NCBI RefSeq assembly: GCF_003605635.1
Contig: NZ_QMDW01000006.1
Coordinates: forward strand, 1 to 64,000
Source: Halonotius pteroides
GTDB lineage: Archaea > Halobacteriota > Halobacteria > Halobacteriales > Haloferacaceae
Length of the DNA stretch: 64,000 nt
Direction: 5' to 3'
The notes below the pieces were generated by a model. The model had not been told where the DNA came from. It saw only the letters and a list, made by a program, of their open reading frames with translations, and searched no databases. Below are positions 4,725 through 45,327 of this stretch, in pieces; the stretch's first letter is position 1; every line of letters begins with the position of its first letter. The position numbers and the translations under genes are program-made.

Positions 4725-5246
4725 ATGAAAATAGACCCACCACCAGACTACGAGGATGTGAACCAGGCGGCGATTGAGGACTGGAAAGCAGAGACAACGA
4801 CACGAGAACGAATTCGCACTGTTGTCCAGCGGATCCAAGAGCCAACGTCAGCGGCTGCCATTGCTGAACAGGCATATGCGAGTGAACCTGTAGTTCGTGA
4901 TGCACTCGCGGATCTGGCTGATCTCGGAGTCGTTGAGACACTTGAGACTACCCAGGGGACGCTGTACAAGCGCAATGATCACATGTACATCTATCGGCAG
5001 GTAGTCAAACTCCACGAAGCATACGACGAAGATGAACTCGTGACAGAACTCCAGACCATCAAGGAGACGGTTAATACGTGGAGAGACAAGCACAATGTCG
5101 AATCTCCTACCGAACTCGCCCAGAAACTAGAACCGGATGATACAGAGGGTTGGGAGGATCACACCGCTTGGCAAACCGCAGAACAGAACCTGTATCTCAC
5201 GAAGGTAGCGATCAGCTTCTATGATGCCAATAGGGTTCTTGCTTGA
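4725..5246 (+). CDS. Winged-helix DUF7342-like regulator, antitoxin candidate, module copy 1
   Basis: This 173-aa protein has an N-terminal winged helix preceded by the WKAETTTRERIRTVV segment, with recognition-helix region AEQAYASEPVVRDALADLADLGVVE. A C-terminal helical part follows (EDELVTELQTIKETVNTWRDKHNVESPTEL), ending in a W-x-TAE-x-NL segment. The same order of blocks is found in the first genes of the modules at 13385, 14740, 17432 and 23013. The gene is preceded by GGAGGT at a good distance and ends 2 bp before the TumE-like gene. I infer an antitoxin and autorepressor from the pairing. The DUF number is from memory. Confidence 0.7.
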   Translation: MKIDPPPDYEDVNQAAIEDWKAETTTRERIRTVVQRIQEPTSAAAIAEQAYASEPVVRDALADLADLGVVETLETTQGTLYKRNDHMYIYRQVVKLHEAYDEDELVTELQTIKETVNTWRDKHNVESPTELAQKLEPDDTEGWEDHTAWQTAEQNLYLTKVAISFYDANRVLA

Positions 5247-5248
5247 CG

Positions 5249-5692
5249 ATGGCTGATCTGAGAGGTGATACCGGCCCAATCGACTACGACGCGCTCGTAA
5301 ACATTCGAGACATCTTCCTTGACACTGAACCACTCGTCAGTCATCACAGTCTCGACGGTCGGCTTGATCCACAGCCTGAGTTGACCGTTACAGTCGATGC
5401 TGGATTCGGTTCGAGTCCGTGTGGGCGTTTTGATGTCGTCTGGACAGAAAACGAGTGTTACAATTTCCATTACCGCGGAGATACTGGGATGGAGTTTCGA
5501 TTCGATCGGCATCCCGAACCAAATGCCCCACCAAAGCATTTCCATACACCTCCGGATGCAACATCGCGGGTTCCATCATGTATCGATGTTGAACCGCCAG
5601 AGCTGGTCACGAGGGCCATACTAAAATGCTGGCGCACAGCGTTGAGTGTGGACAATCCCTCAAAACTCAACTCCGTCTCAAACCCACCCTGA
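5249..5692 (+). CDS. TumE-like (DUF6516-like) protein, toxin candidate, module copy 1
   Basis: This is a 147-aa protein with the block order WTENECYNFHY, FRFDRHP, KHFHTPP, then a short helix (ELVTRAILKCW). The same blocks recur in four other second genes in this window. They resemble the family of TumE toxins (aromatic strand, RWD-like motif, histidine-rich HFHPP), but I could not run a profile search. The ATG at 5249 was chosen over the TTG at 5243. Its start is 2 bp from the stop of the winged-helix gene, so translation is probably coupled. Confidence 0.65.
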   Translation: MADLRGDTGPIDYDALVNIRDIFLDTEPLVSHHSLDGRLDPQPELTVTVDAGFGSSPCGRFDVVWTENECYNFHYRGDTGMEFRFDRHPEPNAPPKHFHTPPDATSRVPSCIDVEPPELVTRAILKCWRTALSVDNPSKLNSVSNPP

Positions 5693-5806
5693 ACTGTCTT
5701 GAGGATAAGATCTACTCAAGTTGACGGACTGTCTGTGAGGAGAACAATTTCAGAATCGACAACACCAGTATTTCCAATGGCATCCCCACTTTGGCGAACA
5801 GCCACA

Positions 5807-5831
5807 CCCCCACCCCACCGCTTCCGCTGTT
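5807..5831 (-). repeat. Class B origin repeat downstream of orc1
   Basis: On the minus strand it reads AACA, GCGGAAGCG, GTGGGGTGGGGG. It lies 51 bp beyond the stop codon of orc1 and matches the repeats at 7141-7370. The 188-bp gap between the TumE-like gene and orc1 holds nothing else I can support. Confidence 0.75.
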
Positions 5832-5881
5832 AGACCACAACAAGAGCTGGTCTCAACAACAGACTCACCGAAGTCATCGAT

Positions 5882-7066
5882 TTAATTGGAGTCTAACAAC
5901 GTCGACAATCCACTTCGGATCGCAGCAATAGACTGCTCCAGCCGATGTTCTTTGTACTTTCCACCGCCTTTCCCGCGATTGTGCTCAGCTGAACTGGCGA
6001 TCCCCAGTTGCGCTAATTCGCCAATATAGTCACGTACCGACCGTTCCGAAACGGGACTCATTCCTTCTGAATGAGCTACATTTCGATACGCATCCACAAC
6101 CTCCCGTGTCCGTGCTGGCGTCTCACCGCGTTCGTGGAGTAGCGTCAGTGCGTACAATACGAGCTTCCCGTGCTGGGAATAGTTCTGTATGCCCTCTACC
6201 ACCTGGTCTGTCTGGACACGTTCACGAGCGTCCTCGACGTGTTGTTCAGTCACCGTCTCTGCCCCATTTTCCCGAGCGACATCACCAGCCTCCAACAGTA
6301 GATCCAGTGCCTTCCGTGCGTCACCGGAATCCTTGGCTCCGTAGGCTGCGCACATTGAGACGACCCCGTCTTCAAGAACATCATCCTGAAACGCGACACG
6401 TTCGCGTTGTTCAAGCACAAGCCGAAGTTCATCGGCATCGTAAGCACTGAACGAAACCTCCTTCTCACAAAGTGACGACCGAACCTTCGATGACAGTTGA
6501 TTTCGGAAATCAAGGTCATTCGAGATACCGATTACGCCGAGTCTCGCATCGGTGATATCCGCATTTGAACGCGCACGCGGCAGTTTGTAGAGAAGTGAAT
6601 CATCCTCAATGTGGTCGACTTCATCGAGAACAATGAGCACTGTTCCCTCACAGGCATCGAGTTCATCGAAAAGGAATTCATAGACACTTGCCTGAGGATA
6701 TCCCGTGTTCGAAATCTGTCGGCCAGGTTCCCGAAGTTCGTTGACGAGTTTCACCGCCACCTGGTAGGATGTGTTCAGCCCATCACAGTTGACTTCGATC
6801 ATCGTAAGCGCAAGTCCTGGGACGTTTGTAGCATCTGTTTGAAGCGTACGGAGAAGGTAGCGAGTAGCTGCTGTCTTTCCTACCCCGCTTTTTCCGTAGA
6901 GAAAGATGTTCGAAGGGGTCTCTTTATTAATAACCGGTTGAAGCGCGGCGTGATACTGACTGAGTTCTTCATCGCGGCCGACCAGATCATCCGGCGTCCA
7001 CTCCTCAAGAAGTGCTTCGCGATTCTTAAAGATGGAGTTGTTTGGCACGAACGAGAAATCGCCCAT
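5882..7066 (-). CDS. orc1/cdc6: Orc1/Cdc6 replication initiator, 394 aa
   Basis: The protein binds origin repeats and loads the MCM helicase. It has a full AAA+ domain with Walker A GKSGVGKT (58-65) and Walker B VLIVLDEVD (143-151), a sensor-2/lid region around LDLLLEAGDVARENG, and a C-terminal winged helix (about 300-394). Length is normal for the archaeal family. A TATA-like TTTATAAATA element lies 22-32 bp upstream of the ATG, implying a leaderless or very short leader. Class B repeats lie on both sides of the gene, the usual arrangement for an origin linked to its own initiator. It is probably a secondary or plasmid-type initiator, because the surroundings are accessory genes and not conserved chromosomal oriC neighbours. 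Confidence 0.95.
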   Translation of the reverse strand: MGDFSFVPNNSIFKNREALLEEWTPDDLVGRDEELSQYHAALQPVINKETPSNIFLYGKSGVGKTAATRYLLRTLQTDATNVPGLALTMIEVNCDGLNTSYQVAVKLVNELREPGRQISNTGYPQASVYEFLFDELDACEGTVLIVLDEVDHIEDDSLLYKLPRARSNADITDARLGVIGISNDLDFRNQLSSKVRSSLCEKEVSFSAYDADELRLVLEQRERVAFQDDVLEDGVVSMCAAYGAKDSGDARKALDLLLEAGDVARENGAETVTEQHVEDARERVQTDQVVEGIQNYSQHGKLVLYALTLLHERGETPARTREVVDAYRNVAHSEGMSPVSERSVRDYIGELAQLGIASSAEHNRGKGGGKYKEHRLEQSIAAIRSGLSTLLDSN

Positions 7067-38936: not shown

Positions 38937-40004
38937 TTACTGCAATCGATACCGCAATAGGGCAGCAATCCCACCGAAACTATCGAGCTGTTGGCCGGGC
39001 TGGAAATCCGACGAGAAAACGGTGATCTCACCACCCTGCTGTTCGACGGTTTCGATCACGTCGTTGATGTCGAGGGCCCAGTCGCCGTCGCCCTGTCGTT
39101 CGTCCCGCAGGCGGTCGTCGAGGATCAGCAGTTCTGCGACCGCGCCGAAGTCGGCGGCCTTCTGGACTTCGTCGATCCCGTAGGCCGCCTTCGCGCCGTC
39201 GGCGATCCGCTCCATCAACTCGTCGATGGTCTCGGCCTCGCGGGCGATCCGGGTCTCGTCCTGTACCTCCTCGACCGCGCCGCGTTTCAGGACTTCGTGG
39301 ACGCCCCGGCCGCCCGCGCTGGAGGTGTCGACGACGGTGATCAGATCGGCGAGGTTGCGGTACTCCTCCTCGATGTAGTCGCGGGCATCCTGCTTCGTGA
39401 AGCCGGGGCCGGCGAGGATGATCGCGTCGGTATCGAGGTGGCTGAGGGCGTCGCCCAACTCGGCGAAGAGTTCGTCGCGCGGCCGGGAGTATTCGCCCTT
39501 GCCAGTGGGTTTGGTGAATGAGGCGTACTCGTCGACGCCGTACTCCTTGACGAGGTGGATGTAGGCCTCGCCCTCCTTGACGGTGGCGATGGCGACATCC
39601 GGGCTGTCGGCGGCCGCTTCGGCCTCCTCGATGCGCTCGATCTGGTCGGGTTTGAACTGCTTTTCGATGGTGAGTTCGTCGTGGGCCTCAACGTTGAGCG
39701 TGTGGTGGTGGCCGAGCTGGTCTTCGCGTGAGCAGCCCGTGATCTCGCCGCCGACGCGCAGGCGGTTGGCGAAGCGGGCGAACTCCACGTCCGAGATCTC
39801 GATGGTCACCGAGAGGTGTTCGCGCTGGCCGCCGGTGTCGCGCATCTGGTCGTCGTCCCGCTGGATGCGCCGGGTGGTGTCGCCGGAGACGAGATCGCCC
39901 GGTTCGAGGACGTAGGAAAGATGCCAGAGATCGTCGACGGTTTCGGGCGTGAGCGTCAGCCGCTCGCGGCCGGCCTCGCCCTGTCCGCGACTCGAAATTC
40001 GCAT
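38937..40004 (-). CDS. pelA: Pelota homologue, mRNA surveillance and ribosome rescue, 355 aa
   Basis: The N-terminal domain starts [29 protein letters not shown], followed by the central and C-terminal eRF1-like domains ([42 protein letters not shown]). Pelota, with aIF-containing partners and ABCE1, splits stalled ribosomes. The length is normal. It is a core archaeal gene. Confidence 0.95.
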
Positions 40005-40113
40005 AGCGAGTGTTCAGGGGGCGCGGTAACAACGCTTGTGTTCTGGAGTTCAATATTAACAGTGGGAAAATATTTTGATTTATTTTGAAAATGCACTATT
40101 ATTCATAAATAAT

Positions 40114-40479
40114 TTATATAAAACCATATGCAAGTGGATAATCCCATCTTTCACCCCCATATGACTTTATTGTAGCTAATACACAGAAAATAATACTGAT
40201 AAGACCAAATAAAATCATACCACCACCTCCAAGCAATATAAATGTCAGAACAATTAGGTCGTTTGAAGAATTAAAAATATAAACTGGAAAAAACACAAGA
40301 GATGCAAATAAATTCCATATAATAAAAAAAGATAGTTGCCAATTGAACGATTTTTTCGAGTTCTCTTTGTTGAATTCGTTATCAGATAGAATATATATAA
40401 TACCAGAGCATATAAAAGAAAAAAAGAACCCAATCAAATGAACAATAATTCCTAACGTATGCTTTTTGTCGAACAACAT
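40114..40479 (-). CDS. DUF4870-like membrane protein in an AT-rich patch, 121 aa
   Basis: Four hydrophobic segments and the loop LSDNEFNKENSKKSFNWQLSFFIIWN match the DUF4870 pattern. Codon use is strikingly AT-rich and the protein is rich in I, K, N and F, unlike its neighbours. It follows the secreted cysteine-rich protein gene by 30 bp and probably shares its transcript. It could protect the producer from that product, but this is speculation. Confidence 0.6.
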   Translation of the reverse strand: MLFDKKHTLGIIVHLIGFFFSFICSGIIYILSDNEFNKENSKKSFNWQLSFFIIWNLFASLVFFPVYIFNSSNDLIVLTFILLGGGGMILFGLISIIFCVLATIKSYGGERWDYPLAYGFI

Positions 40480-40509
40480 ATTTATTTCTATGGTCGGATA
40501 TGTTAAAAA

Positions 40510-41070
40510 TTATCTAAGTTCAGGAGGAAAATCGAGATATGTTTCCACATTTTTACATTCTTTCCCTTTAGAAGGGTCATACCAGCATATCTCTCCTTCA
40601 ATTATAAAAACTAACCGATCTTGATTAAATATATAACCCTCGAATGTGGCATCAATTGGAATGGTGGAGTCACCAACTGATATTTGAATTTTTTCTTCAC
40701 AATCATATAGCACACCGCTGGCACAAGCAAGGTAGCACCCTTCGAGTTCAAAATTACAACCTCCATAGTGACAAACATTTATGCCAATTGAATATCCAAA
40801 AGCAGAATATTGTGTTCCTAAACAAACGCCTTCTTGTTGTTGTGTTGATATTTGATCCGACTCCTTTCTAATTATGGAGGATTGGGGATTATGTTTTACT
40901 TCGTCTTCCGATCCGATTTTGTACCAGTCAGGAGTCTTGTTATTATCAGTCGTGAATTCATCTGTTCCAGTTGATCCTGATTCCTGTGTTGCTGCAACAT
41001 TATTAATTGCGAGAGTTCCAGCACCAACACCGCTTAGGACTCTTAACAGGTGACGGCGTGATTTCACCAT
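40510..41070 (-). CDS. Secreted eight-cysteine protein, halocin-like candidate, 186 aa
   Basis: The N-terminus VKSRRHLLRVLSGVGAGTLA has twin arginines before a hydrophobic stretch and an AxA-like site (Tat signal). A hydrophilic spacer (about 30-85) follows. The rest holds eight cysteines (GVCLG, NVCHYGGC, EGCYLAC, YDC, EIC, KEC). A Tat leader, spacer and cysteine-rich C-terminus is also the plan of halocin C8-type precursors, but I see no clear sequence match. DNA composition is AT-rich, suggesting recent arrival. Confidence 0.6.
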   Translation of the reverse strand: MVKSRRHLLRVLSGVGAGTLAINNVAATQESGSTGTDEFTTDNNKTPDWYKIGSEDEVKHNPQSSIIRKESDQISTQQQEGVCLGTQYSAFGYSIGINVCHYGGCNFELEGCYLACASGVLYDCEEKIQISVGDSTIPIDATFEGYIFNQDRLVFIIEGEICWYDPSKGKECKNVETYLDFPPELR

Positions 41071-41252
41071 GTCAGTACATTATATTTTTCTAACATTTAA
41101 GTGTTTCTAAATATTAATTATATTTAAAACATATTGTTTTTATATGGCTATTTGTTGCACCGTCCAAGGTTGGTACTGTCGCGTAACGACCAACACAATT
41201 CACCTATGTTAAATTGATCAGCGTCATTCAACCCTTAGCGGCATCCACAACA

Positions 41253-42057
41253 TCATTGAGCCCCATCGCTACCGACCCGCTGCCTAATCGCCTTTAGAAT
41301 CTCGGCCTCGTTGAGCGTAATCCCACTCATCGAATACCTGCTCGATTCGATCATGTGACACCGCTGAGTCTCGCGTTTCGACGACGATATGCGGTTCGTA
41401 GCGGTCGCCGTCGAACCGCTCGTCGGCCATTTCGTCCTCGATAGCGTGGGCGGCGCGCTGGGCGGCCATGCGCTCGTCGTCAACGACAACGAAGATATCG
41501 AGATCGCTGGCACGGTCGGCCTCGCCGCGGGCAACGCTGCCGAACAGCACAATACCTGCGTCGTCGCCGATGGCGTCGATGAGTCGGTCGCGGACAGCCT
41601 GGACTGGCGAGCGGTATTCCGACTGTGGAATTCTCGCAATCGGATCAGTAGGCGAACCGGATTTTCGCGGATCGACATCGGAATCGGCCCAGCCGGTGAA
41701 ATCGTCCTCGGCGTATCCATCCTCGAACGCTTCCATGCTGAGCATTGTGGCACCAACAGCGGCGACGCGGTCGTCGTCGCCGACAGACCAGTATGGTGGC
41801 TCGTGTTCGACGAGCCCCTGTTCCTCCAGTCGTGAGAGTGTCGGATTGAGGCTCCCACGCGGCACCTCGGTTTCCGCGCCGATTTCCGCTGGCTTGAATC
41901 CGAGTTCAGGGTGTTGGGCGAGAAACGAGAGGATCCTGTAGGCGTTCGACCCCGGATCGATTGGCAGTGCTTCGACTGCCTCCCGAGCCTGTTTGTACTC
42001 GTCGAACTCTACCGGCATATTCGAATATATCTGTTGTATGCGTTTGTATGCTTCCAC
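41253..42057 (-). pseudogene. Winged-helix/MNT antitoxin gene with a one-base frameshift, HEPN partner missing
   Basis: The main frame has a winged helix (GFKPAEIGAETEVPRGSLNPTLSRLEEQGLV) and the MNT site GSVARGEADRASDLDIF, the same architecture as 3395-4072. It ends early as WDYAQRGRDSKGD. The adjacent frame from about 41327 gives SGITLNEAEILKAIRQRV, the normal tail of this family (compare ATGITLYDSDILKQLK in the other copy). One extra G at 41326-41330 explains the shift. No HEPN gene follows; the AT-rich patch begins instead. A protein truncated in the tail could still be made. Confidence 0.8.
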
Positions 42058-42832: not shown

Positions 42833-43290
42833 TTAGTCCGACTCGGCGACCTGCTCGATACCCGACTGCGACACACCAGACTCCACGAGCACGCCGTGAG
42901 CACTCTCGCGATCCTTCGCGCCGTCGGAGAGTTTCACGAACACCGCGTTCTCGCGGGCCTCAGAGATCGTCTGCCCGCTGCAGTAGCTCAGCCCCGAGCG
43001 AATCCCAGCGCAGAACTCCTCGGTCAGCGGCGCGAGCGGGCATTTATACGGCGTCAACGCCTCAACGCCATCGCCGGAGTCGACATCGATCTCCTTGTCT
43101 TCGCGGTCGTCGTTGGCCGCGGTCGAGGCCATCCCGTGGGAGCGTTTGAACCGCTTGCCGTTGTGTGTGACGACGCGGCCCGGCGTCTCCTCAGTATCAA
43201 AAAAGCCGCCTATCATCACTGCCTCCGTGTCGGTCATGACCGCAACCCCCGGTTCGTCGGCGCGGCCGACCCCGCTCTGCTCGCAGCTCG
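42833..43290 (-). pseudogene. Degenerate copy of the guaB 3' end
   Basis: The frame from 43237 reads MIGGFFDTEETPGRVVTHNGKRFKRSHGMASTAANDDRED and ends EQVAESD, closely matching the C-terminal third of the guaB-like protein at 44254-45327. Upstream, RADEPGVAVMTD matches RADELGITVMAD, but the segment that should follow (GGIQNSGDAAKALMAGA) is deleted. The catalytic cysteine region is absent, so this cannot be an active enzyme. Confidence 0.85.
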
Positions 43291-44253: not shown

Positions 44254-45327
44254 TCAGTCCGACTCAGCGACCTGCTCAGCGCGTCCCTGCTCAACACCGG
44301 ACTCCACGAGCACGCCGTGGGCACTCTCACGTTCCTTCGCGCCGTCGGAAACCTTCACAAACACCGCCTTCTCACGGGCCGCCGGGATCGTGTGCCCGCC
44401 ACAGTAGCTCAGCCCCGAGCGAATCCCGGCGATGAACTCTTCGGTCAGCGGCGCGAGCGGGCCTTTGTACGGCGTCAACGCCTCGACGCCCTCACCGGAA
44501 TCAACGTCGATCTCCTTGTCCTCGCGGTCGTCGTTGGCCGCGGTCGAGGCCATCCCGCGGGAGCGTTTGAACCGCTCGCCGTTGTGTGTGACGACGCGGC
44601 CCGGTGCCTCGTCGGTGCCGGCGAAAAATCCACCCATCATCACCGTCTCCGCGCCGGCCATCAGGGCCTTGGCGGCGTCCCCGGAGTTTTGAATCCCGCC
44701 GTCGGCCATGACCGTGATCCCGAGTTCGTCGGCACGGTCGGCACACTCGTCGACCGCCGACAGTTGTGGGTAGCCCGCGCCAGCGACCTCGCGGGTCGTG
44801 CAATGGGAGCCCGGCCCGACGCCGACTTTCACGCAGTCCGCGCCCGCATCATAGAGATCCTCGACGGCATCAGGCGTGACGACGTTGCCGGCGATCAGTT
44901 CCGGATCGTACTCCGCGCGGATTTCCGCGACCGCGTCGAGTGCGCGTTCCATGTGGCCGTGGGCGACATCAAGCACGACCGCGTCGCCGCCAGCGTTCAG
45001 AATCGCCTCGGTGCGGTCGAGATAGTCCTCGTCGATGCCGACCGCCGCGGCGACGGGGCCACCCTGCTCGACGACCTCGTAGACCGCCGCGGCCTGTTCC
45101 TCTATCGAGAGGAAGCGGTGGATAACACCCAGTCCGCCGAGGTCGGCCAGTGCGGTCGCCGTCTCGGCTTCAGTGACGGTGTCCATCGCCGCGCTGACGA
45201 TGGGGATGTCCAGCGAGAGCGACGGCGTCAACTGTGCGGTGAGGTCGATGTCGCTTCGACTATCCACAGCTGATCGCTGTGGAACCAGCAATGCGTCTCC
45301 GTACGAGAGTCCGGTGCGGAACTCCAT
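44254..45327 (-). CDS. guaB: IMP dehydrogenase/GMP reductase-type protein, 357 aa
   Basis: It is a TIM-barrel enzyme with the catalytic cysteine loop GVGPGSHCTTREVAG (C176), IVSAAMDTVTE at the start of the barrel, and DGGIQNSGDAAKALMAGA for phosphate binding. The flap region GMASTAANDDREDKE is present. CBS domains, usual in full-length IMP dehydrogenases, are absent, so both a CBS-less GuaB and a GMP reductase are possible. Partial copies lie nearby at 42833-43290. Confidence 0.85.
   Translation of the reverse strand: MEFRTGLSYGDALLVPQRSAVDSRSDIDLTAQLTPSLSLDIPIVSAAMDTVTEAETATALADLGGLGVIHRFLSIEEQAAAVYEVVEQGGPVAAAVGIDEDYLDRTEAILNAGGDAVVLDVAHGHMERALDAVAEIRAEYDPELIAGNVVTPDAVEDLYDAGADCVKVGVGPGSHCTTREVAGAGYPQLSAVDECADRADELGITVMADGGIQNSGDAAKALMAGAETVMMGGFFAGTDEAPGRVVTHNGERFKRSRGMASTAANDDREDKEIDVDSGEGVEALTPYKGPLAPLTEEFIAGIRSGLSYCGGHTIPAAREKAVFVKVSDGAKERESAHGVLVESGVEQGRAEQVAESD

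Follow-up and report, generated by a model that had tools for sequence, protein, structure and literature searches.

Background

To our knowledge, very few halocin genes are known, and the immunity studied best is that to halocin C8. Makarova et al. (mBio, 2019) reportedly predicted many archaeal toxin families by reasoning similar to that followed here, and the precursor family described below may already be contained in their lists under a cluster number.

The halocin C8 precursor is Tat-exported and has a spacer and a cysteine-rich C-terminal domain (TIGR04449, halocin_C8_dom); the domain is short, with ten conserved cysteines, and the precursor also has a long N-terminal part, HalI. The halocin C8 gene also encodes its own immunity (PMC3831642). 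The HalH4 precursor is activated by the extracellular halolysin HlyR4, with the release of a C-terminal fragment (PMC12893001). In bacteria, the dedicated immunity proteins of the two-peptide bacteriocins (CbnZ, LagC and LciM) have one to four membrane helices and are structurally diverse (PMC6957408). In Haloferax mediterranei, the inhibition of Halobacterium salinarum persists when halH4 is deleted (PMC6759562), and protease-dependent antagonism persists when hapP is deleted (PMC12893001).

The locus analyzed here lies in a 64,000-nt stretch of DNA, referred to as the window, and encodes a precursor with the same general layout as that of halocin C8: Tat export, a spacer and a C-terminal domain rich in cysteine. 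It differs in that the domain comprises about 100 residues and is acidic and probably beta, in that only about 55 residues stand where HalC8 has the long HalI part, and in that a separate membrane protein is encoded in the cassette. Kinship with halocin C8, the system named for comparison in a preliminary description of the locus, was rejected, since TIGR04449 gave no match at E values up to 10 and none in the window genome, and the profile comparison with hhalign returned a probability of 0.1%. The HalH4/HlyR4 pair, a secreted precursor with a C-terminal part freed by a protease, is proposed here as a model by analogy; HalH4 (HFX_5264) is nevertheless encoded by a separate gene from that of the Haloferax mediterranei member of the present family, WP_137685691.1, which is located on plasmid pHME505. 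The likeness to CbnZ, LagC and LciM is that of a small membrane protein presumed to confer immunity, and no sequence relation to these bacterial proteins is claimed.

Results and discussion

The cassette and its insertion site

The features of the locus are collected in Table 1. The 186-aa protein with a twin-arginine leader, a spacer and eight C-terminal cysteines that had been described from the sequence was confirmed, as was the AT-rich patch in which it lies. The GC content of the patch compares with 0.643 in the 5 kb to the left and 0.595 to the right, and no other 1.2-kb stretch in the whole window has a lower GC content. The two cassette genes have GC3 values of 0.26 and 0.25 in a genome region with about 64% GC.

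Table 1. Features of the two-gene cassette and the surrounding island (window coordinates)
Feature	Position	Strand	Basis
Acquired AT-rich island with both cassette genes	40046..41240	.	GC 0.334; boundaries of similarity to congeners
Probable promoter region of a two-gene transcript, TATA-like stretches TTTAAATATAAT and AAAATATAAT	41071..41130	-	inferred by eye
Gene of the precursor, a Tat-exported cysteine protein of 186 aa (P0001)	40510..41070	-	sequence; full-length relatives
Tat signal peptide, residues 1-27 (KSRRHLLRVL...VAA/T)	40990..41070	-	sequence; RR kept in most relatives
Spacer, residues 28-82, with conserved TPDW(Y/F) (residues 46-50) and ISTQ near the first cysteine	40825..40989	-	alignments
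C-terminal cysteine domain, residues 83-186, predicted all-beta (low confidence)	40510..40824	-	sequence, alignments, model
121-aa DUF4870 protein (P0002) with three hydrophobic segments, presumed to confer immunity	40114..40479	-	PF09685, E 5.5e-14

The left-hand gene, which encodes an eRF1-domain protein (38937-40004), is 96-97% identical across four congeners. The DNA similarity to all four (G066, G478, G232 and G477) breaks off at 40045-40049 and, in G232, picks up again at 41241, so that the cassette represents an insert of roughly 1.2 kb in a site of variable content. At this site, G478 has only 19 bp followed by the IMP dehydrogenase gene (IMPDH), G066 an AT-rich gene for a six-helix protein, G232 an unknown 119-aa protein and an ORF resembling a HEPN partner, and G477 a MazF-like protein, the last two labels having been assigned by eye. 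The absence of the island from the site in four congeners and its sharp boundaries support a recent acquisition, as had been suggested from base composition.

Alternatively, the pair could be cargo that a mobile element carries as an accessory, serving for instance superinfection or entry exclusion and playing no part in antagonism between cells. In favor of this are the hotspot character of the site, the content of which differs from one congener to the next, and the IS elements around the precursor copies of Hfx. mediterranei and Haloarcula pellucida. The island, however, has neither an integrase nor a replication gene, searches of viral contigs and phage records gave no precursor match, and pHME505 was the only plasmid match for the family, so we regard mobile cargo as very improbable.

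The window also has a second, incomplete copy of the IMP dehydrogenase gene, limited to its 3' end and separated by about 1 kb from the complete one (42833-43237 and 44254-44660); the two stretches form direct repeats that flank a DoxX-like gene and a tRNA-Lys, and they look like an integration scar at a hotspot. A MarR/nucleotidyltransferase gene of the MNT type (41284-42057) is missing its HEPN-like neighbor in the window; the neighbor exists in G232 (L168 3033-3554) and has apparently been replaced by the island.

The precursor and its family

The N-terminus of P0001 (KSRRHLLRVLSG...NNVAA/TQ) carries the Tat motif KSRRHLLRVL and a candidate AxA cleavage site, VAA/TQ. All eight cysteines (83, 100, 105, 112, 116, 124, 162 and 172) are located from residue 83 onward, and the acidic spacer that separates them from the signal peptide is a possible processing region. 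The sequence ISTQ (residues 74-77) occurs shortly ahead of the first cysteine, and (I/V/L)(S/T)TQ is found in a like position in several relatives. Two halocin C8-like precursors (L106 and L115) also carry a motif of this type, GVSTQGYTC and TVTTQ, which is possibly a processing site common to the family and to C8-like precursors.

A structure prediction made from three sequences was all-beta with a pLDDT of 36.5, which made it unusable for fold comparison. There was no matching model for P0001 in Pfam, NCBIfam (including the halocin C8 domain) or PADLOC, and no credible relative in PHROG or the PDB.

A search for the C-terminal domain in other haloarchaea, as advised in the preliminary description, did yield relatives: full-length ones were present in 10 of 391 sampled Halobacteria genomes (about 3%), the window genome included, and further relatives in additional genomes of two families. 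Members were found in Natrinema altunense AJ2, Haloarcula pellucida JCM 17820 and Haloferax mediterranei ATCC 33500, where WP_137685691.1, annotated as hypothetical, has an intact Tat signal. The phylum sample of 393 genomes gave matches only in the haloarchaea that were already known. Dozens of genomes gave weak profile matches over residues 5-60 that reflected only common Tat signals, and these loci were reused as controls; the matches in G378, G353, G120, G281, G180 and G151 were discarded as weak or as lying within unrelated frames.

The conserved features of the family are the Tat signal, with the RR pair in most relatives, TPDW(Y/F) in many members, and the C-terminal cysteine domain. 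Cysteines that match residues 105 and 124 are invariant or nearly so in the alignments, while the others vary. The mature domains of all 14 members have an even number of cysteines (4, 6, 8 or 10) and a pI of 4.05-4.7; the even counts fit a disulfide-bonded, exported domain whose bonds were gained or lost pairwise. The preliminary description would have been contradicted by homologues that lack the cysteines or are attached to unrelated enzymatic domains. No homologue is attached to an enzymatic domain, and half of them lack four of the eight cysteines of the window protein, a result that goes against it in part: judged from the alignments, the eight cysteines as a fixed set are not a family feature.

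Two other proteins with Tat export, 279 and 263 aa long, were noted in IS-rich surroundings (L009 1746-2585 in Haloarcula pellucida and L082 4261-5052) and may be halocin-like precursors that belong to yet other families. The locus L117 in G124 (4815-6842) has two tandem modules of precursor and DUF5518, the second precursor being truncated at its 5' end. The first module has the native GC content, so that not every copy of the precursor is a recent AT-rich arrival.

The membrane partner

The DUF4870-like protein reported behind the precursor is a true DUF4870 protein by Pfam (52.5 bits against PF09685, with a gathering cut-off of 25), and its gene begins 30 bp past the end of the precursor gene on the same strand. 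We know of no function for DUF4870 (PF09685) or DUF5518 (PF17647), and a literature search found no paper that connects either family with immunity.

Fifteen loci were compared: the window, G004, G299, G144, G407 (two), G398, G400, G025, G059, G132, G376, G124, G147 and Hfx. mediterranei. A protein above the Pfam cut-off for DUF4870 (5 loci) or DUF5518 (9 loci) is encoded near the precursor in 14 of them, 13 of these partners lying 24-878 bp away; in Hfx. mediterranei the partner is 1.5 kb off, across IS debris, and scores barely above the cut-off. At the remaining locus, G400, an unnamed hydrophobic protein of 125 aa is encoded 84 bp downstream. Since the genome background is about 0.7 DUF4870 and 2.8 DUF5518 genes per genome, the chance of finding a partner is about 0.002-0.004 per locus. 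When family and control loci were treated by the same method, a partner was found at 12 of 13 family loci and at 1 of 61 other Tat-signal loci (Fisher P 8e-12), a comparison in which the partner models were built partly from these same partners, the Pfam calls being independent of that. The single control with a partner (L031 in G107) encodes a Tat-exported six-cysteine protein that is weakly aligned by the family profile. The precursor and its membrane partner are thus supported as a cassette that has been kept across haloarchaea, with the conserved adjacency expected of a toxin and its immunity protein.

Among 40 other loci with DUF4870 or DUF5518, only L138 (2765-3859, G044) adjoins a comparable Tat-exported cysteine protein. 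This protein (230 aa, six cysteines) is unrelated in sequence and is followed by DUF4870 after about 58 bp; it represents a second type of precursor that shares this partner family.

Tight linkage would be seen as well if the precursor had a structural or adhesive function, at the surface or as a secreted protein, and the small membrane protein helped to export, fold or anchor it; the linkage expected of a partner for export or anchoring is similar to that of a protective one. An acidic, probably beta-rich domain would also suit this explanation, as many surface proteins are of this kind. P0001, on the other hand, has no anchor helix and no lipobox cysteine, and the family is patchily distributed in about 3% of the genomes. 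In the precursor tree, DUF4870 users fall in two separate clades, and the closest relative of the pair formed by the window and G004 has DUF5518. The swapping of unrelated partners on one precursor family, even between close relatives, is not expected of a dedicated export or folding factor. A structural or adhesive role is considered unlikely.

The exchange of partners also bears on the idea that the precursor is a secreted signal or a factor for recognition, of mates or of self, with the membrane protein as its receptor. The pairing of a secreted protein with a membrane protein and the rapid divergence of the sequences speak for such a system, yet the partner loops are short, with no evident sensor or output domain, the partner families are interchanged, and the cassette has no regulator. 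We consider this explanation quite improbable.

One-sided decay of the precursor

A frameshift interrupts the precursor in G059. It has no usual start codon in G132 or in G407b and no Tat signal in G376, the second copy of G124 is 5'-truncated, and in G034 and G092 an otherwise matching locus has no precursor at all. The partner is intact in G059 and open in the others, which makes seven precursor copies that are absent, defective or without a signal next to an intact partner, two of which (G034 and G092) were found via the partner and are thus a biased sample. Among the loci seen, no intact precursor was without a small hydrophobic partner. A truncated second precursor fragment in Haloarcula pellucida (G299, L083 6298-6765) has no adjacent partner; it lies next to transposase remnants, about 5.6 kb from the intact copy. 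In the genus that contains G034 and G092, the partner is present in 3 of 29 genomes, and in these two cases the DUF4870 partner could have come before the precursor.

An antidote that outlasts its toxin is the pattern expected of toxin-immunity cassettes. The survival of partners after breakage or loss of the precursor counts against a structural or adhesive protein with a helper.

A proposed toxin and its immunity protein

The reading that we favor, with a probability of roughly 0.7, is that the pair comprises an archaeocin of the halocin type and a separate membrane immunity protein. Several observations suggest this interpretation: 1) a DUF4870 or DUF5518 partner is linked to the precursor in 14 of the 15 loci, 2) unrelated partners have been exchanged, 3) decay is one-sided, 4) the cysteine counts are even and the pI acidic, 5) the module has been duplicated in tandem in G124, 6) known halocin precursors are activated by halolysin and 7) a small membrane protein is often encoded directly downstream of C8-like genes from the same clade as well. 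Regarding the last point, a membrane protein, of 125 aa with four helices or of 61 aa with two, is encoded behind the C8-like precursors at L106, L107, L108, L110 and L111-L113, although halocin C8 has been described as self-immune. On the other side, DUF5518 occurs in nearly all haloarchaea and must therefore have other roles as well. Of the original proposal of an antimicrobial with its immunity protein, the pairing gained from the conserved cassette and the decay of the precursor, and a kinship with halocin C8 was rejected.

In the proposed mechanism, the precursor would be exported via the Tat pathway and its signal peptide removed, and an extracellular protease would probably make a second cut in the spacer, by analogy with halocin H4. 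The domain released in this way, acidic, about 100 residues long and probably all-beta, would be held by disulfides (four bonds in the window member) and might attack related haloarchaea at their surface or membrane. The three-helix DUF4870 protein would protect the producer, a part that may be taken in relatives either by DUF4870 or by DUF5518, which is unrelated to it.

Conclusions

A broader proposal, which we consider possible but rather doubtful, is that these cassettes are modular two-gene archaeocins, in which fast-evolving, disulfide-locked precursors of the beta type are combined with interchangeable DUF4870 or DUF5518 immunity proteins, and that WP_137685691.1 is one of them and lies behind part of the halocin activity that Hfx. 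mediterranei retains after the deletion of halH4. If so, DUF4870 and DUF5518, two common families, would receive their first function, and WP_137685691.1 would be a named candidate for the residual activity. Separate, swappable immunity genes would also make archaeal antagonism akin to the biology of bacterial bacteriocins.
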